Assembly: GCA_030536575.1 (NCBI GenBank)
Contig: JAUNPS010000041.1
Span: 1-35,930, forward strand
Source: Eubacteriales bacterium
GTDB lineage: Bacteria; Bacillota; Clostridia; Lachnospirales; Lachnospiraceae
DNA: 35,930 nt
Direction of reading: 5' to 3'
Both the position numbers and the translations under genes were made by a program. Within the stretch, counting starts at the first letter, position 1, and each line of letters opens with the position of its first letter. The notes beneath the pieces are model-generated. The model ran no database searches. It was given only the letters and a program-made list of their open reading frames with translations, and was not told the origin of the DNA. Positions 12,207 to 29,674 of the stretch are shown in pieces.

Positions 12207-12209
12207 CAT

Positions 12210-14184: not shown

Positions 14185-14194
14185 ATAAGAATGC

Positions 14195-14220: not shown

Positions 14221-14261
14221 GTCGTGATTTCACAGAATTTTCACCGCCTAAACACCAGAAT

Positions 14262-14291: not shown

Positions 14292-14318
14292 AAAAAGTGA
14301 AATGTGAGGACTTGCAAA

Positions 14319-14999
14319 GTGGCGACATTAGGAGTAATTAACGGCGCAGCCGATCCGGAAGTGCATGAGCGGATCGAACGGTATGCATTTTCAGAAGGGA
14401 TTTTGGCGCATGATCTGAAAAGTTATCTGAAAGAGGGAATTGAGAAGGAGGAGAAATTGATCCTGATTTTGGCGGATCGGGAAGGGCTGGATGCGATTTC
14501 GAAGCAGATGGTGAATATCCTGCTTATGACGTGTCCGGTGGTATTTTTGCCTTCTTCGGAGGAAGAGATGGAACAGGTGCTGCGGGAGCGGAAATATCCG
14601 ATGGAGATTGCGAGGTATCCCTTTGACGAGCGGGATTTCCGGCGGGCGCGGAAGGCTTATGTGAGCCGGGAGGTGTGGGAGCATCGGACGATGGTGTTTG
14701 GAGAGCTGCGGATTGACCGGAGCAGCCGGGAGGTGAGGCTGAATGGGCAGCCGCTGGAGCTTTGCGGGTATGATTATGATATTTTTCTGATTTTGGCGGA
14801 GCATATGGGGGATGTGGTGTCCAGGGAGTTTATTAATCAGATGCTGCCGGAGAGGAAGCGGAGTTCGCTGAGGAATGTGGATACGCATATTAAGAGGATC
14901 CGGAAGAGGGTGGGGAGGGAGGATTTGATTCAGTGTATTCGGTCGGTGGGGTATTGTATGTTGGAGGAGAGGCTGGGTGAGGGGGAGCGGGCGGGGTGA
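14319..14999 (+). CDS. OmpR/PhoB-type winged-helix regulator with degenerate receiver-like N-terminus
   Basis: The C-terminal ~100 residues form a Trans_reg_C winged helix: FGELRIDRSSREVRLNG, a recognition region around RSSLRNVDTHIKRIRKRVG and the closing LIQCIRSVGYCM. The N-terminal ~115 residues look like a worn receiver domain (ILILADREG, then CPVVFLPSS), but I see no clear phospho-acceptor aspartate or acidic pair, so phosphorylation is doubtful. No histidine kinase is adjacent. The GTG at 14319 is preferred because GAGGA lies 8 bases upstream; another GTG at 14304 would add five residues. The gene is unusually rich in GGAG/GCGG codons compared with its left neighbour. It may control the ABC-2 cluster to the left, which carries TTAAGA repeats. 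Confidence 0.78.
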   Translation: MATLGVINGAADPEVHERIERYAFSEGILAHDLKSYLKEGIEKEEKLILILADREGLDAISKQMVNILLMTCPVVFLPSSEEEMEQVLRERKYPMEIARYPFDERDFRRARKAYVSREVWEHRTMVFGELRIDRSSREVRLNGQPLELCGYDYDIFLILAEHMGDVVSREFINQMLPERKRSSLRNVDTHIKRIRKRVGREDLIQCIRSVGYCMLEERLGEGERAG

Positions 15000-15008
15000 G
15001 CGCCTGCA

Positions 15009-15890
15009 TTACGCGTCAAAGCGTTTTTCAAAATTCCCCAAAACCTCCATCCGGTCATTAAACGTAAGAAAAGCGCCCGGGTCCAGCTGATGCACCATCC
15101 GCTTCAGCGCCCGGCTTTCATATTTGGAAATCACCGTCATGATCACATGCGAAGTCTGCTTACTGTATCCGCCCTGGGCTTCCCAGGTGGTGCAGCTCCG
15201 GTTCAATTCCTGAATGATCTGGTCACAGATCCGGTCATTCCGGGAAATGATCATGGCGCAGGTCATGATATTCTGATAATGCACCTTATCCATGACAAGG
15301 CTGGCGACATAGCAGAAAATAATGGAATAGACGGCTGTTTCCAGGCTGTTATTCAGGGCGCTGAATGCGTAAATAACGGCGTTCACGATCAGCGTCAGCT
15401 TTCCAACGCTGAAGTCCGGGAAATTTTTGGCACAGTAAATGCCGACAATATCCAAACCGCCCCCGGAGCTTCCGCATTTCAGAGTAAGACCAACGCCGAA
15501 ACCGGAAACGACGCCCCCGATCAAGCAGCAGGTAAGGGTATCCTCAATGATGGGGACGTCCGGCGAGGGGATGACGGACATAAAGAAGGACTGAAGACAG
15601 ACGGTGAAGATGGTTTTTAGGGAAAAGGTGCGGCTGACGACCTTCCAGGAGAGAAAGTAGAGCGGGAGATTCATCAGCCAGAGGAAGATCCCAGTGAAGT
15701 CGACGCTTTCGGGCAGTCGGATATGCAGGAAATCTTTCAGGAAAATCTGCAGAATCTGCGCGATTCCGGTGAAACCGCCGCTGTAGAGGTTCAATGGGAC
15801 AAGGATGACGCGGTAGGCGGCTGCGTAGAGAAAGACGCCGAAGACAGCGCCGGTCATTTTCCAGATTTCCGAAGATGCTTTTCTTGCCAT
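15009..15890 (-). CDS. YitT-family membrane protein (DUF161 + DUF2179)
   Basis: This 293-residue protein has about five membrane segments in its first two thirds, including LNLYSGGFTGIAQIL and the glycine-rich CGSSGGGLDIVGIY motif. These are hallmarks of YitT/YpjC-type proteins. The soluble C-terminal domain (about 210-290, with VIMTVISKYESRALKRMV) is DUF2179, a small alpha/beta domain. The biochemical role of the family is not established; transport has been suggested. AGGAGG precedes the start. It ends convergently 9 bases after the winged-helix gene without a clear terminator. Its mRNA leader contains a MITE-like element. A second member of the family is encoded at 29671-30534. Confidence 0.9.
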   Translation of the reverse strand: MARKASSEIWKMTGAVFGVFLYAAAYRVILVPLNLYSGGFTGIAQILQIFLKDFLHIRLPESVDFTGIFLWLMNLPLYFLSWKVVSRTFSLKTIFTVCLQSFFMSVIPSPDVPIIEDTLTCCLIGGVVSGFGVGLTLKCGSSGGGLDIVGIYCAKNFPDFSVGKLTLIVNAVIYAFSALNNSLETAVYSIIFCYVASLVMDKVHYQNIMTCAMIISRNDRICDQIIQELNRSCTTWEAQGGYSKQTSHVIMTVISKYESRALKRMVHQLDPGAFLTFNDRMEVLGNFEKRFDA

Positions 15891-15913
15891 AGGATACCTC
15901 CTCCTGATACGCC

Positions 15914-16044
15914 ATTGTATCGTTCCTGCTCACTCGTACCTCGTTCCAGTAACCATTCACAGGCTCATTTTAAGTTTTGCTTTGCAAAAGAGCCTGCTCA
16001 CACCTGAATCACTTTCTTACGTCCTTGAGCAGTAACATTGTATC
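15914..16044 (-). mobile_element. MITE-like 115-bp element with target duplication in a 5' leader
   Basis: The element spans 15922-16036. Its ends are GTTCCTGCTCA (15922-15932) and, inverted, GTTACTGCTCA (16026-16036), matching at 10 of 11 bases. It is flanked by identical ATTGTATC octamers (15914-15921 and 16037-16044), as expected for a target-site duplication. Inside is a strong hairpin: CAGGCTC/GAGCCTG continuing into TTTTGC-TTT-GCAAAA. It encodes nothing and has the build of a non-autonomous insertion mobilised in trans. It lies between the promoter and the start codon of the YitT gene, so it is transcribed in that mRNA. Confidence 0.72.
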
Positions 16045-16066
16045 TATTAAATATTTATATGAAGAC

Positions 16067-16095
16067 ATTATATGACATTATATTATGAAAGTCAA
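16067..16095 (-). promoter_or_regulatory. Promoter of the YitT gene
   Basis: On the minus strand TTGACT (16090-16095) and TATAAT (16067-16072) are 17 bases apart. The predicted leader is about 170 bases long and contains the MITE-like element. The rest of the divergent region to 16220 shows no gene. Confidence 0.75.
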
Positions 16096-16220
16096 TGGAA
16101 AGATTTTTGAAGTTAGAAGGCCGGCGGCTCGAAAAGCGGACAACCTTAAGACAGGTACGCGTCAGCGAATAATACAAGCCTGACAACCTGCACAAAAATG
16201 AATATCTGACAAAAAAATCG

Positions 16221-16249
16221 TTGAAAAGAATAATACGTTATGATACAAT
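16221..16249 (+). promoter_or_regulatory. Promoter and possible GntR site of the first deglycase gene
   Basis: TTGAAA (16221-16226), 17 bases, TACAAT (16244-16249). The spacer contains TAATACGT (16231-16238), the same eight bases that begin the palindrome in the promoter at 25404-25432, hence a candidate operator for one of the two GntR proteins. Confidence 0.75.
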
Positions 16250-16286
16250 CTATAACATAAACAAACAAATTCAAGGAGGATTGGTT

Positions 16287-17282
16287 ATGTTCAATTTCAA
16301 CGAAGAAGCAGTCAGAAAAGAACACGAAAACGGCGTCAGCATCATTGCAAAGACTCAGGAAGCAGTCGACCAGATCTGCAGGGAAGGCTATAAAAACATT
16401 TTTTACATTGGAATTGGCGGGACGATTCTCTATGCGGGACAAATGGGCCACATCGTGAAGGAAGCGGGCTCTACCATTCCTCTGTTCATGGAAAATGCGG
16501 CGGATTTCTGCCTGGTAGGGAATCCCCACTTCGGGAAAGACTCCATCGTAGCCATCGCATCCATTTCCGGCGATACGAAAGAAGTTGTGGCGGCCGTTGA
16601 CCAGGCGCACGCGGCTGGCGCGAAGGTAATCGGTTATGTGGAGAAAGAGGGAAGTCCCCTTTATGAGAAAGCCGACTACCTCATCACCACCGTAGGCGGA
16701 GAATATTACTTCTGGTATACCGTTACCCTGCGCTTTATGGCAAACGCAGGCCAGTTTCCAAAGTATGACCAGTTCATGGCCGAGATCGTGAACATGCCGA
16801 AGAACGTCGTGGAAATTTATAAGAAATCCGATGCCAAAGCGAAAGAGTTCGCGGATAAATACTGCGACTCTCCGCTGACCTATCTGGTCGGAAGCGGAAA
16901 CCTGGAAGACTGGGCTACCTGCTACGGGATGTGCATTATGGAAGAAATGCAGTGGATGCGTACCCGTCCCATCTCCGCCGCGAATTTCTTCCACGGCACC
17001 CTGGAAGTCATCGAACGGGACATTCCGGTTATTCTGATAAAAGGAGAGGATAAAACCCGTCCGGAGATGGAGCGCGTAGAGAACTTTGTTCAGACGATCA
17101 GCGCAAATGTTACCGTGTTTGATACAAAGGACTACGAGCTGGAAGGGATCAGTGACGAGTTCCGCGGCCTGCTGGCCCCGATCGTGATGCGCAGCGCATT
17201 CCAGAGAGTTTCTACCCATCTGGAGCATAACCGCCGCCATCCGCTGGCCATTCGGAGATACTATCGGAGACTGGATTACTAA
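16287..17282 (+). CDS. SIS-domain deglycase, FrlB/FraB-like (paralogue 1)
   Basis: This 331-residue protein has two sugar-isomerase (SIS) domains. Members of this group cleave 6-phosphorylated Amadori products (such as fructoselysine 6-phosphate) to glucose 6-phosphate and an amine in the cytoplasm. Visible marks are FYIGIGGTILYAG (39-51), SISGDTKEVV (92-101) and the C-terminal HPLAIRRYYRRLDY, the usual FrlB ending. E220 (in EEMQW) and H236 (in FFHG) are 16 residues apart, the same spacing as the catalytic Glu and His reported for Salmonella FraB. It differs from the other two paralogues by N233 where they have Glu (GEFFHGP), so substrate choice may differ. TCAAGGAGGA precedes the ATG at 16287; the longer frame from 16221 runs through the promoter. 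Confidence 0.88.
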   Translation: MFNFNEEAVRKEHENGVSIIAKTQEAVDQICREGYKNIFYIGIGGTILYAGQMGHIVKEAGSTIPLFMENAADFCLVGNPHFGKDSIVAIASISGDTKEVVAAVDQAHAAGAKVIGYVEKEGSPLYEKADYLITTVGGEYYFWYTVTLRFMANAGQFPKYDQFMAEIVNMPKNVVEIYKKSDAKAKEFADKYCDSPLTYLVGSGNLEDWATCYGMCIMEEMQWMRTRPISAANFFHGTLEVIERDIPVILIKGEDKTRPEMERVENFVQTISANVTVFDTKDYELEGISDEFRGLLAPIVMRSAFQRVSTHLEHNRRHPLAIRRYYRRLDY

Positions 17283-17326
17283 AACAGGAATTTTATGGAT
17301 TTCCCTGGGCTCTTACTGAAAATGAC

Positions 17327-17398
17327 TTGCATGGCTACCTGCAAAATGGTATAATTGTCTTAAAAATGTATATGATATGGCCTAATACATGTTATAAT
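17327..17398 (+). promoter_or_regulatory. Promoter and putative autoregulatory operator of the first GntR gene
   Basis: TTGCAT (17327-17332), a 17-base spacer and TATAAT (17350-17355). Downstream, TAATACATGTTATAAT (17383-17398) matches 14 of 16 bases of the site at 25417-25432. This position in front of a GntR gene suggests autorepression. No terminator separates it from the deglycase gene, so read-through is possible. Confidence 0.7.
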
Positions 17399-17439
17399 GA
17401 ATTACACTATGCGGGGAAGGTTATGAAAAGGAGGAGCCA

Positions 17440-18183
17440 ATGGGAAAACTAAAAAAAGATTCAAGCGTAGCTTTATACCAGCAGCTTGTAAATGAAATCA
17501 AAGAACAAATACAGTCCGGAGAACTGAAAGCCGGCGACCGCCTCATGACCGAAATGGAACTGAGCCGGGAATACGATATCAGCCGCATCACTGTGCGCAA
17601 AGCCATCGAAATTCTCGTAGAAGACGAAATTCTGGTCAAAAAGCAGGGAATCGGCACATTCGTTGCGGAGAAAAAGCTGACCAGAGACGCGGGGATCTTT
17701 ATGGGATTTACAAGGAGCTGTATCCTGGACGGGAAGACTCCCAGCACCCGGCTCCTGTCTGCGGAGTTGGTGCGCGCCAGCGCTTCTGATATCAGGGAGC
17801 TGAATATGGCAGAAGGGGAAAAGGTAATTCGTCTGCGCCGTCTGCGCTTTTGCGACGGCACGCCGGTTCTGGTGGAAGAGAATCACTTTTCTCAGAAATA
17901 TGCCTATCTTCTTGGGGAGGAACTGGAAGGTTCTTTATATGAAATTTTGGAAAAGCACGGAACTTATACCGTTGGCGGAAAACGGAGAGTCAGCATTTGT
18001 TATGCCACGCAGGAGGAAAGCGAGCTTCTGAACGTGACAGAAAAAGACGCGCTCCTGCTTATGAAGGACACCTGTACCAACTCGGAGAATGAGCCGGTCC
18101 ATACCTGTAAAAGCGTGATAAATCCCCGTCTCTATGAGCTTGTGATCGCCAGTTCGCCGGAATGTGGATGGGAGAAAGTATGA
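17440..18183 (+). CDS. GntR-family regulator with UTRA domain (HutC subfamily), FrlR-like (1)
   Basis: This 247-residue repressor has an N-terminal winged helix: ALYQQLVNEIKEQIQSG, then EYDISRITVRKAI and the wing KKQGIGTFV (residues about 8-75). The rest (about 90-240) is a UTRA effector domain, which in this subfamily binds phosphorylated sugars or amino-sugar derivatives. AAGGAGGAG precedes the ATG. Its final TGA overlaps the start of the epimerase gene as ATGA. A product or intermediate of the Amadori pathway is the expected inducer, by analogy with FrlR. It is only moderately similar in sequence to the second GntR protein at 26471. Confidence 0.92.
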   Translation: MGKLKKDSSVALYQQLVNEIKEQIQSGELKAGDRLMTEMELSREYDISRITVRKAIEILVEDEILVKKQGIGTFVAEKKLTRDAGIFMGFTRSCILDGKTPSTRLLSAELVRASASDIRELNMAEGEKVIRLRRLRFCDGTPVLVEENHFSQKYAYLLGEELEGSLYEILEKHGTYTVGGKRRVSICYATQEESELLNVTEKDALLLMKDTCTNSENEPVHTCKSVINPRLYELVIASSPECGWEKV

Positions 18184-19019
18184 TCACAATCCAAAAATCA
18201 CAGATTGCTGTGATGAACATCCAGTACCGCTATTTTCCGCTGGAGAAGTTCCTGGACGACGCTGTGGCGAACCAGGTACAGAATGTGGAACTTTGGGGCG
18301 CCTCCCCGTTTTTCCACATAGAAGATATGACTTACCGGGAGGTCCAGCAGGTGCGCCGGGCCATCGAGTCCAGAGGGCTTCGTCTGGTCTGCCTGACGCC
18401 GGAACAGTGCGTGTATCCGGTGAACCTGGCGGCCCCCACTGGTACGGCCCGCCGCCGGAGCCTGAAATTTTTTGAGGATAACCTGCGGGCGGCCGCGGAA
18501 CTTGGGACACAGAAAATGCTGGTGACGACCGGGTTTGGCTATTTCGACGGAAGCGACCGGGAGGAGGCCTGGAAGTGGGCGCGGGAAGGCCTTTTTGATC
18601 TGGCCGAGCTGGCGCAGGCGCATGGCGTGACCCTGGCACTGGAGGTCCTGCGCCGGGACGAGAGTAACCTGGTGTATAATCTGCCGACCCTGCTGCAAAT
18701 GCTGCAGGAGCTGGATCATGGAAGCATCGGCGGGATGATCGATACCATACCCATGGCCCTTGCGGGGGAACGGCCGACGGATTACTTAAAGGCCCTGGGG
18801 GAACGGCTGGTGCATGTCCACTTTATTGACGGTGCGCCGCGGGGACATCTGGCCTGGGGCGACGGCGTGCTGGATATGAAGGGCTACCTGGAGGAATTTT
18901 CCGCATATGGATACCAGAACGCGCTTTCCCTGGAGATCACGGATGGGAGATATTATCTGGACCCGACCGCGTCCGTGAAGCAGAGCATCGATGCGCTCTA
19001 TGCGGTTCTGGAGCATTGA
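18180..19019 (+). CDS. TIM-barrel sugar epimerase/isomerase, FrlC-like
   Basis: This 279-residue protein belongs to the xylose-isomerase/AP-endonuclease-2 superfamily. Likely metal ligands are E155 (TLALEVL), D188 (GGMIDTI), H214 (HVHFIDG) and E252 (LSLEIT). VELWGASP (36-43), LTPEQ.VYPVNL (72-83) and RDESNLV (159-165) resemble FrlC, which interconverts fructoselysine and psicoselysine at C3. The start forms ATGA with the end of the GntR gene, and the upstream in-frame ATG at 18162 is inside that gene. Placed between a deglycase and a kinase gene, it probably feeds a C3-epimeric Amadori compound into the pathway. The exact substrate is not proven by sequence. Confidence 0.82.
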   Translation: MITIQKSQIAVMNIQYRYFPLEKFLDDAVANQVQNVELWGASPFFHIEDMTYREVQQVRRAIESRGLRLVCLTPEQCVYPVNLAAPTGTARRRSLKFFEDNLRAAAELGTQKMLVTTGFGYFDGSDREEAWKWAREGLFDLAELAQAHGVTLALEVLRRDESNLVYNLPTLLQMLQELDHGSIGGMIDTIPMALAGERPTDYLKALGERLVHVHFIDGAPRGHLAWGDGVLDMKGYLEEFSAYGYQNALSLEITDGRYYLDPTASVKQSIDALYAVLEH

Positions 19020-19045
19020 AATTTTCGAAAAGATACCGAAATGAC

Positions 19046-19104
19046 AAAGAGATGTGTTTTGAAAGGAACAAGATGTTCTATGACAACACATCTCTTTCTT
19101 TTTG
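19046..19104 (+). terminator. Rho-independent terminator after the epimerase gene
   Basis: A perfect 13-bp stem AAAGAGATGTGTT/AACACATCTCTTT (19046-19058 with 19085-19097) is capped by a smaller hairpin GAAC-AAGAT-GTTC, followed by CTTTTTGCGTTTTTTT. It ends the deglycase/GntR/epimerase unit. Confidence 0.88.
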
Positions 19105-19235
19105 CGTTTTTTTATGACAAAGAGGTTTTGAGAAAATTTCGGGGAAAATATTATTTTTTGTTGTGAAAAATAACCAAAAAAATAATGCTGATATAATGCA
19201 TATAGACAAAATGTACGGAACCGATGAAAAATTCA

Positions 19236-19269
19236 TTGATTTTTGTAATAAGACATTATATAATGATTA
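19236..19269 (+). promoter_or_regulatory. Promoter with palindromic operator of the kinase/ABC operon
   Basis: TTGATT (19236-19241), 17 bases, TATAAT (19259-19264). The -10 box lies inside the perfect palindrome CATTATATAATG (19254-19265). The longer ACATTATATAATGATTA (19253-19269) is repeated exactly at 25274-25290 in the promoter of the second deglycase, which argues for co-regulation by a repressor covering the -10 box. Confidence 0.82.
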
Positions 19270-19310
19270 CATGATAAAAAAGACAAACAGAAAATCGGGA
19301 GGAAACGTTT

Positions 19311-20207
19311 ATGATTAAGGTTTTGGGACTTGGAGATAACGTGGTGGATAAATATATGCATACCAAAACCATGTATCCGGGCGGAAACGCTTTGAACATT
19401 GCAGTTCTGGCGAAGCTCTTCGGAATCGAATCCGGCTACTTCGGGGTATTCGGAGACGATGCGGCTGCGAAGCATGTATATCGGACGATTTGTGATTTGG
19501 GGCTGGATGTTTCCTACTGCCGTTTTTATCACGGAGAGAATGGTTACGCGGAGGTACGGCTGGACGACGGCGACCGTGTTTTTGTCGGATCAAATGGCGG
19601 AGGCGTTTCAAAGACGCATCCCATTGATACTCTGACAGATATGGAATTAGATTACATTGCAGGTTATGACGTGTGCCACACCAGTATTTTCAGCTATGCA
19701 GAAGAGGTTCTCCCGGCGCTGCGGAAGGCGTCCCCCTTCCTCTCCTTCGATTTTTCGAACCGTTACGATGAAGACTATCTAAAACGCTGCTGTCCCTATA
19801 TCGATATGGCGGCGATTTCCTGCGGCGATATGCCAAAGGAGGAGATTATCGCCCAGATGGAGCGGATTGCTGATTATGGATGCAAACACATTGTAATGGC
19901 AACCAGAGGATCGAAGGGTGCATTTCTGATGGTAGACGGGAAATTTTATGAGCAGTCCCCCTGCCTGGTGGAAGCGAAGGATACGATGGCCGCAGGCGAT
20001 TCCTTCATTACCAGTTTTTTGATCAATTATGTAGACGGCATGAAGGATGCGGTAGACTTTTCCGAAGCGTCTGGAAAACGCGGCGTGACTGAAAAAGAAA
20101 CGTATCAGGACATGCTGGTAAAAACCAGTCTTTACCGTGCGGCTGTGTTCGCAGCCGGGAACTGCCAGCGAGACGGTTCCTTTGGATTCGGCAAGAAATT
20201 TGAGTGA
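19311..20207 (+). CDS. PfkB-family sugar kinase, fructoselysine 6-kinase (FrlD)-like
   Basis: This 298-residue cytoplasmic kinase probably phosphorylates the imported Amadori compound at O6, making the substrate for the deglycases. The N-terminal PfkB signature is PGGNALNIAVLAK (23-35). The C-terminal one is KDTMAAGDSFITSFL (223-237), with D230 as the catalytic base next to the anion hole. GVFGDDA (45-51) also fits the family. Length is slightly above FrlD of Escherichia coli and close to other ribokinase-fold enzymes. GGGAGG precedes the ATG. It is the first gene of a five-gene operon with the importer and a PHP protein. Specificity is inferred from the context rather than from unique residues. 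Confidence 0.85.
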   Translation: MIKVLGLGDNVVDKYMHTKTMYPGGNALNIAVLAKLFGIESGYFGVFGDDAAAKHVYRTICDLGLDVSYCRFYHGENGYAEVRLDDGDRVFVGSNGGGVSKTHPIDTLTDMELDYIAGYDVCHTSIFSYAEEVLPALRKASPFLSFDFSNRYDEDYLKRCCPYIDMAAISCGDMPKEEIIAQMERIADYGCKHIVMATRGSKGAFLMVDGKFYEQSPCLVEAKDTMAAGDSFITSFLINYVDGMKDAVDFSEASGKRGVTEKETYQDMLVKTSLYRAAVFAAGNCQRDGSFGFGKKFE

Positions 20208-20211
20208 TATT

Positions 20212-20228
20212 AAAAGCGCGTGGCTTTT
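20212..20228 (+). other. Small intercistronic hairpin
   Basis: AAAAGC and GCTTTT pair around GCGTG directly after the kinase stop. It has no T-run and may only stabilise or separate the kinase and binding-protein parts of the mRNA. Confidence 0.35.
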
Positions 20229-20263
20229 GATATAGAGAATGAAAAGTATAAGGAGGTAACAAA

Positions 20264-21571
20264 ATGAAGAAGAGAGTATTAAGCGTGTTACTGGCAACTT
20301 CGATGGTGGCAACCATGGCAGCGGGAGCATCCGCCCTGACCGTATCCGCAGAAGAGAAGAAGACCATTAAATTCTTCCACCGTTTCCCGGATGAACCGTA
20401 TAACAGCTTCATCGAAAGCAAGATCGCAGAGTACGAGGAAGCCCATCCGGACATCGATATCGTGGTGGAAAGCGCCCAGAACAACCCGTATAAAGAAAAA
20501 CTGAAAGTGGTTGTTGGCGGAGACGACTGCCCGGATATCTTCTTTAGCTGGTGCGGCGAGTTTACCGAGCGCTTCATCCGTGAGGATCTGATCCTGGATC
20601 TGACTCCATATCTGGAAGCGGATACCGAATGGAAAGAATCACTGATGGAATCCCAGATGGTAAACTATACGCTGGATAACGGCATGGTATATGGAATCCC
20701 GTTCCGTCTGGATGCGAAGCTGTTCTTCTATAACATCGACCAGTTTGAAGAAGCGGGCGTAGAGGTTCCGACGACATGGGACGAACTGGTAGAGGTATGT
20801 GAGAAGCTGCAGGAGGCGGGCTTTACGCCGATCGCTTATGGAAATCAGGATCTGTGGCCGTCCGCACACTACATTGGCACGCTGAACCAGATGCTTGTCA
20901 GCGACGAAGTGAGAGCCGTAGACTATACGCCGACCACAGGCGCCTTTACCGATCCGGGTTACCAGACGGCGCTGGAGTATTATGAGAAGCTGATCCCGTA
21001 TTTCAATGAGAATTCGAATGGTATCACCGCAGATATGGCACGTTCGAATTTCTGCATGGGAATGGGTGCAATGTACTATGCGGAAGTTATTGAAATCCCG
21101 TATATTTCTGATCCGACTTCCGGACTGAATCCGGATCTGAATTACGGAATGTTCAAATTCCCGGAGATTGAAGGGCCGGGCAACCCGAACATCTTAACCG
21201 GCGTACCGGAAGGCTTTGTCGTTTCTTCCAAGACGGAGTATCCGGACGAATGCGTAGAATTCCTGAAATGGTTCCTTGGAAAAGAAGTTGGTACGGAACA
21301 GGCACAGACCATCGGCTGGTTTAACGCGTCGATCGGCACCACCGAGGGCGTAACCGACCAAACCCTGCTGGATGCTTACAATGTCATCACAAGCGCGGAA
21401 GAGATGGGGCCGTGGTTTGACAATGCGCTGTATTCTACCGTTTGCGACGAATACCTGACCGCAGCGTCTGACCTGACGAACGGCGATGTAACTCCGGCGG
21501 AAGCGATGGAGAAGATTCAGGCAAAAGCCCTGGAAGCACAGACTCTGGCTGCACAGACGACCGAAGAATAA
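20264..21571 (+). CDS. ABC transporter solute-binding protein (family 1), FrlO-like
   Basis: This 435-residue binding protein should capture the Amadori compound outside the cell. It has a Sec signal (KKR, hydrophobic core, ALTVSA-EEKK) with cleavage near residue 30. As in the first importer of this window there is no lipobox cysteine. The mature chain shows the standard family layout: IKFFHRFPDEPYN near the start, GGDDCPDIFFSW, and PTTWDELVEVCEKLQ in the hinge-proximal domain. AAGGAGG precedes the ATG. It follows the kinase gene by 56 bases and precedes two permeases. In B. subtilis frlONM encodes an analogous importer next to frlB and frlD. Confidence 0.9.
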   Translation: MKKRVLSVLLATSMVATMAAGASALTVSAEEKKTIKFFHRFPDEPYNSFIESKIAEYEEAHPDIDIVVESAQNNPYKEKLKVVVGGDDCPDIFFSWCGEFTERFIREDLILDLTPYLEADTEWKESLMESQMVNYTLDNGMVYGIPFRLDAKLFFYNIDQFEEAGVEVPTTWDELVEVCEKLQEAGFTPIAYGNQDLWPSAHYIGTLNQMLVSDEVRAVDYTPTTGAFTDPGYQTALEYYEKLIPYFNENSNGITADMARSNFCMGMGAMYYAEVIEIPYISDPTSGLNPDLNYGMFKFPEIEGPGNPNILTGVPEGFVVSSKTEYPDECVEFLKWFLGKEVGTEQAQTIGWFNASIGTTEGVTDQTLLDAYNVITSAEEMGPWFDNALYSTVCDEYLTAASDLTNGDVTPAEAMEKIQAKALEAQTLAAQTTEE

Positions 21572-21609
21572 TCGCAGGAATTATCACAAAATCATAAATA
21601 ACTGAATGC

Positions 21610-21643
21610 GGCAGGCATCCCGCCGGGAGGTGGTGTGCCTGCC
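21610..21643 (+). other. Intercistronic hairpin between binding protein and permease genes
   Basis: GGCAGGCA (21610-21617) pairs with TGCCTGCC (21636-21643), with an inner TCCC-GCC-GGGA hairpin. There is no T-run. As in the first importer, it probably protects the binding-protein message and raises its level over the permeases. Confidence 0.7.
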
Positions 21644-21691
21644 CTTATTATAGGAAATGATAACGTAAAACAGAAAGCTGGTGAGCATTTT

Positions 21692-22567
21692 ATGAGAACC
21701 AAAAAGTATACGCCTTATTTATACATGCTGCCTGGATGCGCTATGGTTTTACTCTTTGTGTATATCCCGGTTATAGCAAACTGCGTGTATAGTTTTTTCA
21801 GACTTTCGTCTTACTCCTCCGGAATGAAATTCGTAGGGTTTGACAATTACGTGAGATTTTTTACCAATGAAACATTCTGGATCATGATACGGAATAATGT
21901 TCTGTACTGCGTGATCTCCCTGATCGTGCAGGTGGGATTCGGCACAGTGGTTGCTTTGCTTCTGGAAAGTAAGCTGGCAGGAAGGTTTCAGAATGTGTTC
22001 AGAAATATCTATTACATTCCCGCACTGATTTCCCTGACTGCGGTAGGCCTGATGTTTACGTTCGTGTACGAGCCGAACCTGGGGCTTTTGAACTCAGCGC
22101 TGAAAGCGCTTGGGCTTTCCAACTGGACACAGTCCTGGCTGGGCGACTCGAAGCTGGCGATCTTCAGCATTATTGCAATGAGCCAATGGCAGTTTACCGG
22201 ATACATTACCCTTCTGATGGTAGTGGCATTCCAGAACATTTCGACGGATTATATCGAGGCGGCGGAAATCGACGGGGCAGGCCCGGTCAGAAGAGCGATC
22301 AGCGTGATGATTCCGTTGGCGAAGGAGCAGCTTTTGGTTTGCTCGATCATTACGATCATCGGCGCATTTAAGCTGTTCACGGAGGTTTATTCTACGACGG
22401 CGGGCGGCCCTGGAAATAGCTCGCAGGTATTGGGCCTGTTCTTGTACCAGAATGCATTCCTGCATGACGACCTGGGGATGGCAGCCGTTACCGGTGTCTT
22501 TATTTTCGTGATTACAATGATACTGTCCATTATCCAGATTAAGGTTACGAAATCCGGCGAAGTATAA
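21692..22567 (+). CDS. ABC transporter permease, MalF type, FrlN-like
   Basis: This 291-residue pore subunit has about six membrane segments, starting at LYMLPGCAMVLLFVYIPVI. The EAA loop is DYIEAAEIDGAGPVRRAISV. The ATG at 21692 has GGTGAG six bases before it and gives the normal short basic N-terminus (RTKKYTPY). A GTG at 21635 would place the start inside the upstream hairpin and is rejected. It lies 11 bases before the partner permease. No ATPase gene is present in this cluster either. Confidence 0.9.
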   Translation: MRTKKYTPYLYMLPGCAMVLLFVYIPVIANCVYSFFRLSSYSSGMKFVGFDNYVRFFTNETFWIMIRNNVLYCVISLIVQVGFGTVVALLLESKLAGRFQNVFRNIYYIPALISLTAVGLMFTFVYEPNLGLLNSALKALGLSNWTQSWLGDSKLAIFSIIAMSQWQFTGYITLLMVVAFQNISTDYIEAAEIDGAGPVRRAISVMIPLAKEQLLVCSIITIIGAFKLFTEVYSTTAGGPGNSSQVLGLFLYQNAFLHDDLGMAAVTGVFIFVITMILSIIQIKVTKSGEV

Positions 22568-22578
22568 GGAGGGGTTCT

Positions 22579-23403
22579 ATGAAAAAAAAGACTGTGCTGA
22601 AAGTCCTTTTAAACCTCTTTTTCGTGTTTCTGGCGCTGATCATTCTGCTGCCGATGGCATGGATGATCATAAATTCCTTAAAGACGAATCAGGAGATGTT
22701 TAAAAATTCTCTGGCCCTTCCGGCAGTGCCGCAGTTTAACAACTGGGTGAAAGCATGGAATTCCGGGCTTTATAAGTATTTTGGAAACTCGTTGATCGTC
22801 AGCGGCGCATCCCTGCTCGGGATTCTGGTCTTGTCGTCCCTGCTGGCCTACGGGCTGACGCGCTTCCAGGCGAAGGGGAGCAATGTTATTTTTCTGATTG
22901 TTCTGGGGGGAATGGCGCTGTCGGAGCAGGTAGCTCTGGTGCCGCTGTATAAGATTCTGAAAGCAATGCATATTTATAATACTTATTGGGCGCTGATCCT
23001 GCCTTATGTGGCGTTCCGGATTCCGTTTACCGTGTTTTTAATGCGGTCGTATTTTATCGCGATCCCAAGAGAGCTGGAAGAGGCGGCTGTTGTGGATGGA
23101 TATAACAGTTTTCAGATTTTCCTGAAGATCATTGTGCCGATCAGCAAACCGATTTTTGCATCCTGTGCCATTGTCTGCCTGAACCACGTGTGGAACGAGT
23201 TCCTGTTTGCCAATGTCTTTTTGGAGAGCAAAGCTCTGATGACGATTCCGATCGGCCTGATGACCTTCAAAGGCGATCTGCGTGCGGATTATACGACAAT
23301 GCTTGCAGGGATCATTATCGCATCGCTGCCGATGATCATTCTGTTCCTGTGTATGTCAAGGCAGTTTGTGCGCGGCCTGACTGCGGGTGCGGTGAAGGGG
23401 TGA
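22579..23403 (+). CDS. ABC transporter permease, MalG type, FrlM-like
   Basis: This is the second pore subunit, 274 residues, about six membrane segments. The EAA loop is LEEAAVVDGYNSFQIFLKII and the protein ends RGLTAGAVKG, as MalG-type permeases do. AAGGAGGGG precedes the ATG. Its last four bases overlap the GTG start of the PHP gene (GTGA), so the PHP protein is probably made by translational coupling. Confidence 0.92.
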   Translation: MKKKTVLKVLLNLFFVFLALIILLPMAWMIINSLKTNQEMFKNSLALPAVPQFNNWVKAWNSGLYKYFGNSLIVSGASLLGILVLSSLLAYGLTRFQAKGSNVIFLIVLGGMALSEQVALVPLYKILKAMHIYNTYWALILPYVAFRIPFTVFLMRSYFIAIPRELEEAAVVDGYNSFQIFLKIIVPISKPIFASCAIVCLNHVWNEFLFANVFLESKALMTIPIGLMTFKGDLRADYTTMLAGIIIASLPMIILFLCMSRQFVRGLTAGAVKG

Positions 23404-24209
23404 GAAAAATCAGATACGATTATCATGTACACAGCAGCATTTCCCCGGACGGACGCGCTTCGATGGAAGAAATGTGTGAGAGCGCGATTGAAAAGGGAAT
23501 GGAGGAAGTGGTTTTTACCGACCACTATGAGTTCTACGCCCATGGAGTCACGCGCCAGTGGTTTCATGAAGAGTACCTGAAACGGTATTTTGAGACTGTG
23601 GGGCGCTGCCGGGAGCAGTTCGCAGGAAGGCTGACGGTAAAGAGCGGGATGGAATACGGACAGCTTCATCTGTATCCGGAAAGGACGGCGGATTTTGTAA
23701 AAAGCCATCCCTATGACTTCGTCCTGGGCGCGGTCCATAAGATTGAAAATGTAGATTTGGCTCAAATCACGGTCACGAAGGAAAATGCGGAGTGGATCGG
23801 GGATGCGTATTACTATCATTTGCTGGAGTTGTCCGAGGTGGGCGAGTTTGACTGCATCGCCCATCTGGACTACTTTAAAAAGCATTGTGCGAAACAGGGA
23901 CTGCCGGATCTTTACGAGAAATATCAGCCGTTCATAAAAAAGGTTTTGGAGAATGTAATTAAGAGAGGGAAGGGCATTGAGCTGAACACCGCCTGCATGG
24001 GCGGAGTGCTGGAGGAAACGATGCCGGGGCCGCCAACGCTGGCGCTTTATAAAGAGCTGGGGGGAACGATCGTGACAGTAGGGTCGGATTCCCATAGGCC
24101 GGAGCGGATCGGGTATGGGTTCGACGCGGTGTACCAGGAACTGAAAAAGGCGGGTTTTCGAGCGGTGGCGACGTATCAGAACAGGATTTGTACGCTGAAG
24201 GCTTTTTAG
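23400..24209 (+). CDS. PHP-domain phosphoesterase, histidinol-phosphatase-like
   Basis: This 269-residue protein of the polymerase-and-histidinol-phosphatase superfamily uses a trinuclear metal site. Visible ligands are H9 and H11 (YDYHVHSSISPDG), the Glu in SGMEYGQ, the His in GAVHKIE, FDCIAHLDYF, and the C-terminal GSDSHRPERIG. HisK-type members release phosphate from small phosphomonoesters. I chose the GTG at 23400, which overlaps the permease stop as GTGA; no other start lies near the HxH motif. No histidine biosynthesis gene is near, so a true HisK role is unlikely. Its place at the end of the kinase/importer operon suggests dephosphorylation of a pathway by-product such as a dead-end sugar phosphate. 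That is inference. Confidence 0.85.
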   Translation: MRKIRYDYHVHSSISPDGRASMEEMCESAIEKGMEEVVFTDHYEFYAHGVTRQWFHEEYLKRYFETVGRCREQFAGRLTVKSGMEYGQLHLYPERTADFVKSHPYDFVLGAVHKIENVDLAQITVTKENAEWIGDAYYYHLLELSEVGEFDCIAHLDYFKKHCAKQGLPDLYEKYQPFIKKVLENVIKRGKGIELNTACMGGVLEETMPGPPTLALYKELGGTIVTVGSDSHRPERIGYGFDAVYQELKKAGFRAVATYQNRICTLKAF

Positions 24210-24218
24210 AAATGACAT

Positions 24219-24246
24219 GGGGCGCGGTTCTTTCGAACCGCGCCCC
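24219..24246. terminator. Strong hairpin between convergent genes
   Basis: A perfect 12-bp GC-rich stem GGGGCGCGGTTC/GAACCGCGCCCC with a TTTC loop lies between the PHP gene and the second deglycase. T-runs on both sides are poor, so it may work as a bidirectional terminator or as an end-stabilising structure. Confidence 0.7.
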
Positions 24247-24256
24247 GTATTGCTGA

Positions 24257-25228
24257 TTAATAATCAAGTTTCCACATATATCTTCTCTGGCTTAACGGAT
24301 GATTCCGCACGATCGCAAGCTGTTCTGCGTAAACTCTTACAACTCCGGTAATGATCATCGGGCTGAAATATTCCGCAACGCATCCCGGTACATAGCTGCT
24401 CAGTCCATAATCCTTTGCATCGACGACGGTCGTCTTCGCGCCGAAACGATTCAGGAAATCAAGGGCTCTGGAATCCATTTTCCGGGTTCTTCCTTCGTTC
24501 ATGAAAAGCAGGAACGGAACGTCCTTGTCTACGATCTCGAAGGGGCCATGGAAGAATTCGCCGTCATGGAAGGAGCCGGAATTGATCCACTGCATTTCCA
24601 TCAGCAGGCAGATGGAGAAGGAATAAGCAACCTTCTGGGTAGCGCCGGAGCTCATCACATAGATAACCGGTGCATCCTTATAGTCCTCCGCAAATTTTCT
24701 GGCGGACGGCGTAACGAAGGAAACGGCATTTTCAATCGCTTCATAAATATTCTGATAGCCTTTTACCATATCCTCATAATGATCGTAACCTTCATACTGA
24801 TTCAGAACCTCAACGGCCAGCATCAGGATATTGTTCATCTTTTCAAGCTTCGCGGCATAGTTTTTTTCGAAGCCATGAACGATCACATAGTCGGCATTCT
24901 GCGCCAGCGGGGAATTTGCGTCATGGGTAACGGCGATGACCTTTGCGCCCCTTTCACGGGAAAGCTTCGCAGATTCTACGGTTTCCGGGGTGTTTCCGCC
25001 CAGGGAGCAGGCGATGACGATCGCGGATTCGTCCAGGGCAGCCGGAGTTGCGTAGTTAAATTCGTTCGCGGTATAGAAGCCGGTACGGAGCACTTTGGCG
25101 TTACAGTCCATGAAATACTGGGCCGGGTACTGCTCTGAGGAAGAAGCGCCGCAGCCGACAAAGTATAACGTGCGGATTTCCGGGCGCTCTGCTTTAATAC
25201 TTTCGATAATCTGTTTTGGTTCCATCAT
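24257..25228 (-). CDS. SIS-domain deglycase, FrlB/FraB-like (paralogue 2)
   Basis: This 323-residue protein has two SIS domains. LYFVGCGASSSEQYPAQYF (21-39) and SLGGNTPETV (75-84) form the phosphosugar pocket of the first domain. E211 (MEMQW) and H227 (GEFFHGPFE) keep the 16-residue spacing of the FraB catalytic pair. The ending HPLSQRRYMWKLDY is FrlB-like. AAAGGAGGA precedes the ATG at 25228. It is transcribed towards the kinase/importer operon and shares with it a 17-base promoter-operator sequence, so it is the most likely deglycase partner of that kinase. Catalysis on the 6-phosphate of an Amadori product is inferred; the amine part is unknown. Confidence 0.88.
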   Translation of the reverse strand: MMEPKQIIESIKAERPEIRTLYFVGCGASSSEQYPAQYFMDCNAKVLRTGFYTANEFNYATPAALDESAIVIACSLGGNTPETVESAKLSRERGAKVIAVTHDANSPLAQNADYVIVHGFEKNYAAKLEKMNNILMLAVEVLNQYEGYDHYEDMVKGYQNIYEAIENAVSFVTPSARKFAEDYKDAPVIYVMSSGATQKVAYSFSICLLMEMQWINSGSFHDGEFFHGPFEIVDKDVPFLLFMNEGRTRKMDSRALDFLNRFGAKTTVVDAKDYGLSSYVPGCVAEYFSPMIITGVVRVYAEQLAIVRNHPLSQRRYMWKLDY

Positions 25229-25273
25229 GAAAGATCCTCCTTTATTATACGGACATATTTTAGATGTATGCAA

Positions 25274-25304
25274 ACATTATATAATGATTATAAATACCTG
25301 TCAA
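25274..25304 (-). promoter_or_regulatory. Near-consensus promoter with palindromic operator, second deglycase gene
   Basis: On the minus strand TTGACA (25299-25304), 17 bases, TATAAT (25276-25281): both boxes are perfect. The -10 box lies within CATTATATAATG (25275-25286). The same ACATTATATAATGATTA stretch occurs at 19253-19269. A promoter this strong should need repression, which fits an operator over the -10 box. Confidence 0.85.
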
Positions 25305-25403
25305 TGATGAGGCGGAAATTTCTTAAAAATAAGCATTTTTCACAAGAAAAACGACAAAAACTTGTAAAAAAACTATAATGTAATAGAATGTTTTGATAAA
25401 CAC

Positions 25404-25432
25404 TTGAAAAACATATTAATACGTATTATAAT
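25404..25432 (+). promoter_or_regulatory. Promoter with palindromic operator, third deglycase gene
   Basis: TTGAAA (25404-25409), 17 bases, TATAAT (25427-25432). The perfect palindrome TAATACGTATTA (25417-25428) overlaps the -10 box. Extended to TAATACGTATTATAAT it matches 14 of 16 bases with 17383-17398 in front of the first GntR gene. Confidence 0.82.
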
Positions 25433-25475
25433 TACCACATAAAATAAATCGGTATTTGCATAAGGAGGAAGCAAC

Positions 25476-26438
25476 ATGCAGAAAGTGAAACAGATCGTAT
25501 CCGAAATTCTGGCGAAACAGGAAATTAACACCGTGTATTATGTAGGCTGCGGCGGTTCGTTAAGCGGATTTTTCCCGGCCAAGTATTTCCTGTCCTGTGA
25601 GGCAAAGAAGCTGAAGGTTGGTTATATAAACGCAAATGAGTTCGTCCATGCGACTCCGAAGGAAGTCGGGAAAGACACGGTCGTTATCCTGGCTTCTCAG
25701 AGAGGGAATACCGCAGAAACCGTGAAAGCCGCCGCTGTGGCAAACGAAATCGGTGCAGTCACCATCGGCCTGACGTTTGTCGTACCTTCCCCGCTTGCCG
25801 AGACGGCGCAGTATGTGATCCAGTACGAATTCGGCCCGGAATCCATCGTAGAAAATCAGAAGGCTTCCTATGGGGTGAAGCTGGCGCTGGAAATCCTGAA
25901 CCAGACGGAAGGGTACGAAAAATATGACGAAATGACAGCGGCACTGGGAAACCTGCACGGGATCGTAGAGCAGGCGAAAAAGGACGTGGTTCCCACAGCG
26001 ATTAAGTATGCATGGGAATTTAAGGATGATTCCGTGATTTATACGATGGGAAGCGGCGCGTGCTGGGGCCCGGCGCATCAGGAGGCGATCTGCATTTTTA
26101 TGGAAATGCAGTGGATCAATGCCAGCGTGATCCATTCCGGCGAGTTCTTCCACGGCCCCTTCGAGATCACGGACAAGAATACCGCGTTCCTGATGATGAA
26201 ATCCTGCGGACATACCCGCGCGCTGGATGACCGTGCACTGAATTTTATCCGGAAATTCAATGACCGCATTTTCGTGCTGGATGCTTCGGAATATGGCATC
26301 GGCGGGCTGGGAGACACGGCGGAGTATCTGGAGCCTTTGTTCTACAATAACGTGATCGCCGTCTTTAACGGGTTACTGGCAGACGCCCGTAAGCATCCGC
26401 TGACAACCAGAAGATATATGTGGAAATTCCCGTACTGA
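25476..26438 (+). CDS. SIS-domain deglycase, FrlB/FraB-like (paralogue 3)
   Basis: This 320-residue protein has two SIS domains and is closer to paralogue 2 than to paralogue 1. YYVGCGGSLSGFFPAKYF (21-38) and SQRGNTAETV (74-83) form the sugar-phosphate site. E210 (MEMQW) and H226 (GEFFHGPFE) are the candidate catalytic pair. The C-terminus is HPLTTRRYMWKFPY. AAGGAGGAAG precedes the ATG. It is divergent from paralogue 2 and is followed 32 bases later by a GntR gene, forming a small unit of its own with no kinase or importer. It therefore probably handles a second Amadori-type phosphate generated by the shared kinase or by one encoded elsewhere. Confidence 0.88.
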   Translation: MQKVKQIVSEILAKQEINTVYYVGCGGSLSGFFPAKYFLSCEAKKLKVGYINANEFVHATPKEVGKDTVVILASQRGNTAETVKAAAVANEIGAVTIGLTFVVPSPLAETAQYVIQYEFGPESIVENQKASYGVKLALEILNQTEGYEKYDEMTAALGNLHGIVEQAKKDVVPTAIKYAWEFKDDSVIYTMGSGACWGPAHQEAICIFMEMQWINASVIHSGEFFHGPFEITDKNTAFLMMKSCGHTRALDDRALNFIRKFNDRIFVLDASEYGIGGLGDTAEYLEPLFYNNVIAVFNGLLADARKHPLTTRRYMWKFPY

Positions 26439-26470
26439 TCTGCGGGAAGGCTTCAGAGAGGAAAGCGGAC

Positions 26471-27208
26471 ATGCTGAATCAGAACTCAACCATTCCTCTG
26501 TACGAACAGGTGAAGGAATCGATCAAACAGAAAATCGAGCAGAAGGAATGGAAGGAAAATACAAAAGTCCCTTCGGAAACGGAGCTGATGAAGCGGTACG
26601 AGGTAAGCCGGGTTACCGTGCGAAACGCGTTGGCGCTTTTGGTAGAGGAAGGGTATCTGGAGAAAAAGCAGGGGATCGGAACCTTTGTTTCCAGGCCGCG
26701 GATTAAAAAGATTATTTTTCATCGTTCCAGCTTTACCCAGAGTTGTGAGAAAGGGGGTTTAAAGCCCTCTGCACAGGTCTTAAAAAAAGAAGTGATCGAT
26801 GGGAAAAATCTTTACCGGAAAAGCCTGCAGCTTGCTCAGGACGATAAGCTGGTACATATCGAGCGGCTCCGCATGGCGGACGACGAACCGGTTTCCCTGG
26901 AACATATGTATTTTTCCTATCAGGAATATGGATTTTTACTCTGGGAAGATCTGGAGGGTTCGGTTTATGCGATCATGAAAAAGCGGCTTGGAATCGACTT
27001 GACAGAGAAAAACCGGGAGAATCGGAATATTTTGTCGGTAGAGAAGGCGGGCGCCAGGTTTGGGAAGCTTTTTGGCGTGTCGTCTTCGGAACCGGTGTTT
27101 GTGATGGAGACGCTGGTGTATCATGGGGGAAAGCCTGTTTATGCGGGGAAGGATTACTGTCTGGGGAGTCGTTTCTGCTATGAAGTGAATTCTACGGATG
27201 TAGAGTAA
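26471..27208 (+). CDS. GntR-family regulator with UTRA domain, FrlR-like (2)
   Basis: This 245-residue repressor has the winged-helix part IPLYEQVKESIKQKIEQ, then YEVSRVTVRNALALL and the wing KKQGIGTFV, within about residues 8-75. The UTRA domain fills the remainder. The ATG at 26471 is chosen because AGAGGAAAG lies just before it; a longer frame would begin inside the deglycase gene. It is co-transcribed with paralogue 3 and probably represses that promoter. Whether it or the first GntR protein binds each of the two palindrome types is open. Downstream there is a C-rich tract but no clear intrinsic terminator. Confidence 0.92.
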   Translation: MLNQNSTIPLYEQVKESIKQKIEQKEWKENTKVPSETELMKRYEVSRVTVRNALALLVEEGYLEKKQGIGTFVSRPRIKKIIFHRSSFTQSCEKGGLKPSAQVLKKEVIDGKNLYRKSLQLAQDDKLVHIERLRMADDEPVSLEHMYFSYQEYGFLLWEDLEGSVYAIMKKRLGIDLTEKNRENRNILSVEKAGARFGKLFGVSSSEPVFVMETLVYHGGKPVYAGKDYCLGSRFCYEVNSTDVE

Positions 27209-28720: not shown

Positions 28721-29674
28721 ATGAGCACACACCCAGAGCAGCAGATGCAGGGCCTCGTGGAGAGCCTGCTGGAGAGTTATAAAAAATATCCGATTATCAG
28801 CAATATTGATTCGTGCAGCCGGATTAACCGGGAAGTCGTCCTGGAAATCCTGGAACAGCTTCGCTATATTGTATTTCCGGGCTATTTTGAAATGAGAAAT
28901 TTGAAGAGCAATTCCCTGTCCTACCACATCGGGGAGATTTTGGAGAGCATCCAGTACAACCTGACGAAACAGGTAGCCAGGGCCCTTTTCCACGACCCGG
29001 CAAAGACCCCCGGCTGCTGGGAAGACGGCCGGGAAGAATCCGCAGAAATCGTCCGCGAATTTTTACAGACCCTCCCCAGAGTCCGCGAAATCCTGGCCAC
29101 CGACGTCCAGGCCGGCTACGAAGGCGACCCGGCGGCCTTTAATACAGATGAGGTCATCCTGTCCTATCCTGGCCTGTACGCCATCTTCACGAACCGGATC
29201 GCCCACGAACTTCACCTTCTGAACGTGCCGCTGATCCCGCGTATGATGACCGAATACGCCCACAGCCTGACCGGAATCGATATCCATCCGGGGGCGACCA
29301 TCGGAAAATATTTCTTTATCGACCATGGAACGGGGGTTGTCGTGGGAGAAACCACGCAGATTGGGGACAATGTAAAGCTTTACCAGGGCGTAACCCTTGG
29401 TGCGCTTTCCACAAGAGGGGGCCAGGTGCTGCGCAATGTAAAGCGCCACCCGACCCTGGAAGACAATGTAACCGTCTATTCCGGCGCGTCGATCTTAGGC
29501 GGCGCAACCGTTATCGGCACAGGCGCGGTTATCGGAAGTAATGCATTTATCACCGCTTCCGTCCCGGCCCATACCCGTGTCAGCATTAAGAATCCGGAGC
29601 TCCAGTTCAAGGATCGTTCCAGAACCGCGGAGCTTGGACAGGAAGGTTTCTTTAACCGGAAAGAAGTCGATTAA
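28721..29674 (+). CDS. cysE: Serine O-acetyltransferase (CysE/EpsC type)
   Basis: This 317-residue enzyme transfers acetyl from acetyl-CoA to L-serine, the first step of cysteine synthesis. The N-terminal ~140 residues are the helical SATase domain; the rest is the left-handed beta-helix with hexapeptide repeats. Residues match E. coli CysE: D187 (GIDIHPGA), H202 (FIDHGTG) with the same 15-residue spacing as D143/H158, and H243 (VKRHPT), corresponding to H193. The VVVGETTQIGDNV block is diagnostic. It is longer than E. coli CysE at the N-terminus, like other Clostridia EpsC forms. GAGAGGAG precedes the ATG. It ends convergently with the YitT gene with a 4-base overlap. No cysK is present here. 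Confidence 0.93.
   Translation: MSTHPEQQMQGLVESLLESYKKYPIISNIDSCSRINREVVLEILEQLRYIVFPGYFEMRNLKSNSLSYHIGEILESIQYNLTKQVARALFHDPAKTPGCWEDGREESAEIVREFLQTLPRVREILATDVQAGYEGDPAAFNTDEVILSYPGLYAIFTNRIAHELHLLNVPLIPRMMTEYAHSLTGIDIHPGATIGKYFFIDHGTGVVVGETTQIGDNVKLYQGVTLGALSTRGGQVLRNVKRHPTLEDNVTVYSGASILGGATVIGTGAVIGSNAFITASVPAHTRVSIKNPELQFKDRSRTAELGQEGFFNRKEVD

Follow-up and report, generated by a model that had tools for sequence, protein, structure and literature searches.

Why should a single locus for the use of fructosamines (Amadori products) encode three SIS deglycases, when the characterised loci that we compared use one or two? This question is raised by a stretch of 35,930 nt from a member of the Lachnospiraceae (Eubacteriales bacterium; GenBank assembly GCA_030536575.1, contig JAUNPS010000041.1), hereafter the window, which makes up one entire contig of a draft genome of 4.8 Mb in 100 contigs (completeness 90.7%, contamination 3.1%). 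The host is a gut bacterium related to Enterocloster. Eleven genes lie within positions 16287–27208 in the order sisA, gntR1, frlC, frlD, sbp, perm1, perm2, php, sisB (minus strand), sisC and gntR2, and all eleven have an open reading frame. A first-pass annotation of this sequence had described three SIS deglycases, two GntR/UTRA regulators, a FrlC-like epimerase, a FrlD-like kinase, an ATP-binding cassette (ABC) importer and a PHP phosphoesterase standing together, and all of these genes are present. We propose, with a probability of about 65%, that the island is a fructosamine utilisation system in which one importer and one kinase are shared by three deglycases that differ in leaving group.

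The three deglycases fall into three different clades. We inferred a careful tree of 82 rows, a FastTree phylogeny of 196 rows and a second careful tree of 66 rows with nine further proteins, and the same groups were recovered in all three. The product of sisA (16287–17282, plus strand; PF01380) belongs to the GfrF clade (16 rows with support 100/99 in the 82-row tree; 15 rows with 100/99 in the 66-row tree), which is separate from FraB, FrlB and GfrE; the label FrlB/FraB-type that this protein had first been given is thus replaced by GfrF-type. In the 82-row tree, sisB (24257–25225, minus strand) forms a clade of its own (13 rows, 100/100) within the supergroup of FraB and Bacillus subtilis FrlB, and sisC (25476–26438, plus strand) groups with STM0572-like and Erysipelotrichaceae proteins (13 rows, 98/94) in a clade that is joined to its sister, the FraB clade (25 rows), at 98/95. 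The FraB clade proper contains neither sisB nor sisC, and we filed neither as FraB. In the same tree E. coli FrlB and GfrE each branch off deeply on their own, and GlmS and AgaS lie outside. None of the three proteins groups with GlmS in any of the trees, or with AgaS in the 196- and 82-row trees that include it, which was the placement that the first-pass annotation had set against its own proposal. Sequence identity is 36% between sisA and GfrF, 49% between sisC and FraB, 43% between sisB and FraB and 45% between sisB and sisC.

Among solved structures, the best matches of sisA were 2a3n (E = 3.4e-69) and 8glr (E = 8.7e-68; entitled "FrlB - Deglycase for 6-phosphofructose lysine"), whose sequences are nearly identical. 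In a Salmonella arizonae locus (L204), membrane genes are followed by two SIS genes, the latter of which is similar to 2a3n and 8glr; we take this locus to be the gfr operon. The best match of sisB was Salmonella FraB (9otj; E = 2.6e-82), and that of sisC was 3fkj (STM_0572; E = 3.5e-115). A predicted model of sisB (predicted local distance difference test, pLDDT, 85.3) yielded template modelling scores of 0.87–0.90 to FraB chains versus about 0.71–0.77 to GlmS-type structures; its catalytic segment 208–231 is of low confidence and we took no pocket geometry from the model. SIS was the only domain detected in sisA and sisC.

The annotation had also pointed to a Glu and a His 16 residues apart as a FraB-like trait. 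The pair is indeed found in sisA, sisB and sisC, and across the alignment (Glu in 195/196 rows, His in 187/196), but it is equally present in all five GlmS/AgaS rows, and we rejected this spacing as a marker of the FraB-type class. Of the rows without the His, L121 is a frame artefact, and the other eight, proteins near sisC from Erysipelotrichaceae or a goat metagenome-assembled genome (MAG), carry Asn instead (L111, L112, L113, L114, L118, L132, L153 and L161). Seven of these genes, all of Erysipelotrichaceae type, adjoin a HAD phosphatase and an STM0573/GfrE-like SIS protein. The Asn-bearing proteins possibly perform a different reaction or act as non-catalytic partners. By sequence, it is the C-terminal tail that separates most deglycases from GlmS and AgaS: Arg-Arg-Tyr is found in 158/196 rows and Arg-Lys-Tyr in 10/196, and neither in the five GlmS/AgaS rows. 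The Arg-Arg-Tyr tail is common to sisA (as RRYY), sisB, sisC, FraB, FrlB and GfrF; GfrE and the STM0573-like protein also lack both forms. Finally, 14 columns are invariant within each set of orthologues but distinguish all three sets from one another, and three of these columns lie between the catalytic Glu and His. Together with the three clades and their maintenance as orthologues, these columns bear out the earlier description of the deglycases as diverged. One further difference concerns the sisA orthologues, all six of which carry Asn three residues before the His, where 181/196 rows, including Salmonella GfrF, have Glu.

What each enzyme cleaves can be approached through its characterised relatives, and most likely the three differ in leaving group. 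By analogy with GfrF, sisA would act on ε-linked fructoselysine 6-phosphate, while sisB and sisC would act on α-linked fructosyl amino acids, as do FraB and B. subtilis FrlB. FraB is reported to act on 6-phosphofructose-aspartate (6-P-F-Asp) and to be inactive as the E214A variant (PMC9609667, PMC12755824), and degradation in B. subtilis is reported to favour α-glycated amino acids (PMC12632257). Glucoselysine had also been considered as a substrate, but the GfrE clade holds none of the three proteins. GfrE is assigned to glucoselysine in PMC12136445 and in the main text of PMC12675984, although the legend of Figure 1 in the latter gives the substrates of GfrE and GfrF the other way round. We rejected sisA as a glucoselysine enzyme because glucoselysine goes to GfrE and because fructoselysine, as named in the title of 8glr, is the better supported substrate for enzymes of GfrF type. 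It is reasonable to infer that the island serves several substrates.

We further analyzed the distribution of the island. A collection of species genomes was scanned with sisC and the best 80 of 193 relatives were retained, as 79 loci; the nearest are labelled Enterocloster or Lachnospiraceae. Orthologues of the three deglycases are 70–77% identical in other genomes. Four Lachnospiraceae MAGs (L092, L094, L095 and L101) hold all three orthologues along with gntR1, frlC, frlD, sbp and the permeases, so that the island is less singular than the first description had implied. In L092, L094 and L101 the genes run in one direction (sisB-sisA-gntR1-frlC-frlD-sbp-perm1-perm2-sisC, with a yitT gene between sisB and sisA in L092). 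A further genome (G151, L075) has sisB-yitT-sisA and the remaining genes without sisC. In another genome of the same family (G1107, L228), the block sisB-yitT-sisA-gntR-frlC is kept and the third deglycase comes from another clade. Five loci (L103, L108, L141, L145 and L151) have the same importer type, and sisB is partnered there by an enzyme whose best score is as FraB-type; their kinases are 59–60% identical to frlD in L103 and L108 and 38–41% in L141, L145 and L151. The pair of sisB and a FraB-type enzyme is also found in L106, with no importer in the fetched stretch. One organism with such a pair is the cultured relative Lacrimispora amygdalina. The third deglycase slot therefore varies by lineage. 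The largest set was found in a goat-jejunum Clostridia MAG (RGIG2582, contig JAFRLQ010000145.1; L161 or G1117:C20 at about 10060–21933, L235 and L236), where six deglycase-like genes lie in ~12 kb: two of GfrF type, three of a further clade and one of STM0572 type without the catalytic His. In two other relatives (L090 and L096), a locus at about 5.3–12 kb comprises genes for a GntR regulator, a PfkB kinase, an amidohydrolase, a permease-like protein, an ABC ATPase, a sisC-type deglycase and a putative binding protein.

We also counted how often three deglycases stand together. Among the 108 fetched loci of at least 8 kb, 66 have one deglycase-like match, 33 have two (L121 being a frame artefact), eight have three and one has five; the eight reduce to four organisms, since the third match is GlmS in L098 and looks like an RpiR regulator in L205, and L208 and L209 repeat L094 and L101. 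The earlier statement that one or two deglycases are usual agrees with 101 of 110 fetched loci (66 with one, 35 with two, nine with three or more), which were selected largely for their resemblance to sisC and not at random. Three deglycases within 15 kb were seen in 1/397 genomes of the same family, 2/392 of the same order and 1/398 of the same phylum, the window's own included each time; these tallies were read by eye at a cut-off of 1e-20 with sisC, which leaves GfrE-type enzymes invisible, and the samples overlap. Two other genomes of the window's genus yielded no SIS match and one GlmS-type match, respectively. In the host genome itself, the only further SIS match to sisC is a 640-residue GlmS-type frame. 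All three genes are under purifying selection: for sisA, sisB and sisC, the proportion of nonsynonymous differences (pN) is 0.15–0.18 (0.16–0.18 when the window is compared with L092 or L094) and that of synonymous differences (pS) 0.72–0.84, and we give no exact pN/pS ratio as synonymous sites are saturated.

As in utilisation systems of the frl/fra/gfr kind, an importer, a C6 kinase and a deglycase, as judged by family, are encoded together. The importer consists of a CUT1-type solute-binding protein (sbp, 20264–21571; PF01547, 6e-40) and two permeases (perm1, 21635–22567, and perm2, 22579–23403; both PF00528), all on the plus strand. The ABC importer first described is thus present except for its ATPase, and two UgpC/MsmX-type ATPases score above the curated cut-off elsewhere in the host genome. 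On the plus strand, frlD (19311–20207) encodes a PfkB-family kinase that is probably a fructosamine 6-kinase: it scores 167 bits on NF007321 (cut-off 247) and Salmonella FraD, with which it shares 41% identity, scores 170 bits on the same model. The frlC-like sugar epimerase gene (18180–19019, plus strand; PF01261) scores 117 bits on the fructoselysine 3-epimerase model NF007360 (cut-off 305). Using an ATPase encoded elsewhere, the importer would take up glycated amino acids; the epimerase would feed in the C3 epimer, the kinase would phosphorylate C6, and one of the three deglycases would cleave the phosphorylated compound, releasing glucose 6-phosphate and an amino acid.

Two kinds of accessory genes recur beside such clusters: YitT genes and genes for HAD or PHP phosphatases. 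The php gene (23400–24209, plus strand, from a GTG that overlaps the perm2 stop) encodes a HisJ-family PHP-domain phosphoesterase (PF02811, 5e-25; TIGR01856, 135.6 bits for a cut-off of 90.2) that is 54% identical to the PHP protein of L151. At the place of php, L075, L092, L094, L095 and L101 have a HAD phosphatase near sisC or perm2. Divergent from sisA and outside the span originally given, yitT1 (15009–15890, minus strand) encodes a membrane protein of the YitT family that carries a DUF2179 domain at its C-terminus (PF02588, 1.6e-49, and PF10035); a second YitT-family gene at 29671–30594 flanks the island on the other side. In L075, L092 and L095, the YitT gene adjoins sisB. We counted neighbours within 2.5 kb of a deglycase in the 110 of 118 loci kept after removing duplicates by shared sequence. 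Eight of ten YitT matches are near a deglycase (787 kb near, 1263 kb far; P = 0.009, which is too small as the window, L075, L092 and L095 belong to a single lineage). These eight are distributed over 0/66 loci with one deglycase, 4/35 with two and 4/9 with three or more, of which L098, whose third match groups with GlmS, and probably L099 do not truly hold three deglycases. HAD genes show 24 near matches versus eight far (P = 3e-5, again too small owing to shared lineage), and we found no proximity signal in these loci for PHP (three near, one far) or amidohydrolase genes (eight near, 11 far). A model of the YitT protein (pLDDT 78.5) had no PDB match at E ≤ 0.001; among the best 50 of its 1115 matches, the top ones are to the DUF2179 domain and to PII/PstA- and CutA-like domains. 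To our knowledge, no function has been reported for the YitT family. As a guess, the PHP phosphatase, or HAD in the relatives, might clear stuck phospho-Amadori intermediates and YitT might export the released amino acid.

Expression of the island is likely divided into five units: sisA; gntR1-frlC; frlD-sbp-perm1-perm2-php; sisB; and sisC-gntR2. We placed the boundaries because of probable terminators after frlC and between php and sisB. The former is a hairpin with T runs behind it (19040–19115, plus strand; −20.7 kcal/mol, z = −3.56) that is not on the list of the consensus terminator scan, which takes loops of 3–8 only; the latter (24217–24248; −29.2 kcal/mol, z = −7.57) separates the convergent gene ends and also appears in that scan. 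The sisB promoter (25276–25304, minus strand; TTGACA-17-TATAAT) matches 12 of 12 consensus positions, and the plus-strand frame opposite sisB has no Pfam or NCBIfam match. For sisA, an ATG at 16287 with a ribosome-binding site upstream is likelier as start than TTG 16221, and the probable frlC ATG overlaps the gntR1 stop. Both regulators, gntR1 (17440–18183) and gntR2 (26420–27208, with a more likely start at a later ATG near 26471, judging from the N-terminus), are on the plus strand and contain PF00392 and PF07702; gntR1 is 34% identical to FraR and 29% to FrlR. A candidate operator, CATTATATAATG, lies at 19254–19265 over the −10 of the frlD promoter, with an exact second copy at 25275–25286 before sisB, a third with one mismatch and a fourth with two, all in island promoter regions; four matches were reached in 2/100 shuffles. 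In L103 it recurs exactly, upstream of sisB; L108, L141 and L145 have copies with a single mismatch (before sbp in L108 and L145), and five close relatives, L092, L094, L095, L101 and L075, have none at up to one mismatch. A second palindrome, TAATACGTATTA, has a single exact copy, before sisC; when two mismatches are allowed, four matches result, of which two fall outside island promoters, and this number was reached in 0/100 shuffles. CATTATATAATG overlaps −10 boxes, and we claim neither palindrome nor CATTATATAATG as a shared operator.

Several observations weigh against a fructosamine system with three distinct deglycases. Clade does not fix substrate, because a gfrF mutant is reported to grow residually on fructoselysine, for which relaxed specificity or another deglycase was suggested (PMC12675984). 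The three proteins score 86.4, 105.3 and 110.1 bits on the FrlB equivalog NF008481 (cut-off 430 bits), on which E. coli FrlB scores 812 bits; FraB (106.8) and GfrF (98) are likewise below this cut-off, and we dropped it as a membership test for that reason. The epimerase shares only 24% identity with E. coli FrlC. In the clade of sisC, moreover, close kin with Asn for His may have lost catalysis, although sisC keeps the His. We know of no function for the STM0572 clade or the sisB clade, and our literature search on STM0572 and STM0573 returned one paper, with a single mention of STM0573 and none of STM0572. The uncharacterised clades, the Glu/His pair shared with GlmS and AgaS and the unusual Asn of the sisA orthologues would all fit a role of at least one of the three as a deaminase or isomerase of a non-Amadori substrate, for instance a phosphorylated amino sugar or some other N-linked sugar phosphate. 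We regard this as very unlikely, given that all three share the C-terminal tail of FraB, FrlB and GfrF, that the tree separates them from GlmS and that a fructosamine-type kinase and an importer adjoin them. It is rather unlikely, too, that the three enzymes have one set of phosphorylated fructosamines as their common substrates and have been retained for the sake of dosage, affinity or different regulation, as a safeguard against a toxic 6-phospho intermediate. The toxicity of 6-phosphofructose-aspartate in fraB mutants (PMC12755824), the promoter-like sites of sisB and sisC, the GntR gene beside sisC and the 45% identity of these two deglycases speak for such redundancy; three deep clades long kept as orthologues and columns fixed differently in each, some between the catalytic residues, argue against it.

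The position of sisC deserves separate consideration. Its nearest relatives are the copies in the separate ABC-importer locus of L090 and L096 (77% identity, versus 70–73% for copies inside islands), and sisC may belong to another uptake route. Combined with its own regulator and promoter-like site, this could indicate two systems side by side, one from yitT1 to php with sisA and sisB, the other a recently moved sisC-gntR2 module using another importer. In four relatives, however, the island itself includes a sisC-type gene, which in three cases adjoins the permease genes and has their orientation, and no second locus was seen in the window's genome at its 90.7% completeness, where all three SIS matches other than the GlmS-type one are on this contig; we find two systems fairly improbable. 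The fructosamine system with a shared importer and kinase could also be read more broadly, as a plug-in scheme in which one importer and one kinase handle many 6-phosphofructosyl amino acids, while lineages add or swap deglycases (two, three, perhaps up to six) according to the leaving amino acids in the diet, with YitT as exporter and PHP or HAD as overflow valve for toxic intermediates. The main support for this broader scheme is the third slot, which differs by lineage; we advance it tentatively and consider it rather doubtful as a whole. If true, the YitT family would gain a metabolic role.

Heated food brings glycated amino acids to the gut, and the island points to gut Lachnospiraceae with a wider use of Maillard products. 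The three-deglycase locus and its six-gene relative constitute a natural set of enzymes for the study of leaving-group specificity in SIS deglycases, and two uncharacterised deglycase clades and a YitT gene gain a testable context. Upstream in the window, a glycan locus (148–9490; a binding protein, two permease-like genes and GH95-like, GH43 with GH43_C2 and GH4 enzymes) probably serves plant oligosaccharides and is adjoined by a gene for a HipA C-terminal-like protein (9900–10802).

How does the island compare with known systems? Among the literature matches listed, no title or abstract opening describes a locus with at least three deglycases, which is not proof of absence. The Salmonella gfr operon (gfrABCDEF) unites two deglycases, one of them the relative of sisA, but import and phosphorylation are reported there to depend on a mannose-family phosphotransferase system (PMC12675984) instead of an ABC importer and a kinase, and its glucoselysine enzyme GfrE has no counterpart among the three. 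The Salmonella fra locus (fraR-BDAE) shares the GntR regulator, a FraD-like kinase and FraB-type deglycases similar to sisC and sisB. As judged from the gene order of L139, fra differs by its one deglycase, a different transporter and an asparaginase; no epimerase match was found in this locus. The frl locus of B. subtilis (frlBONMD) has one deglycase, of a clade different from those of sisA, sisB and sisC, and is not known to encode an epimerase. It resembles the island in its Type I ABC importer FrlONM, kinase and deglycase, and its importer can borrow the ATPase MsmX (PMC12632257). In E. coli, frlABCD-R likewise sets an epimerase, a kinase and a regulator beside the deglycase, but its transporter is FrlA and its FrlB is of a deep separate clade. 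The fructoselysine cluster of Intestinimonas AF211, also a gut anaerobe, combines an ABC importer, a kinase and a deglycase, with a single deglycase in the published model (PMC4697335). The RGIG2582 cluster has a PfkB kinase, epimerase-like genes, deglycases and a HAD phosphatase in common with the island or its relatives; it also holds an AstE/AspA-type hydrolase, and differs by its six deglycase-like genes and by the Peripla_BP_4 binding protein of its sugar ABC importer. As related bacteria have an equal or a larger set, the island resembles a known pathway of food scavenging in an expandable form.

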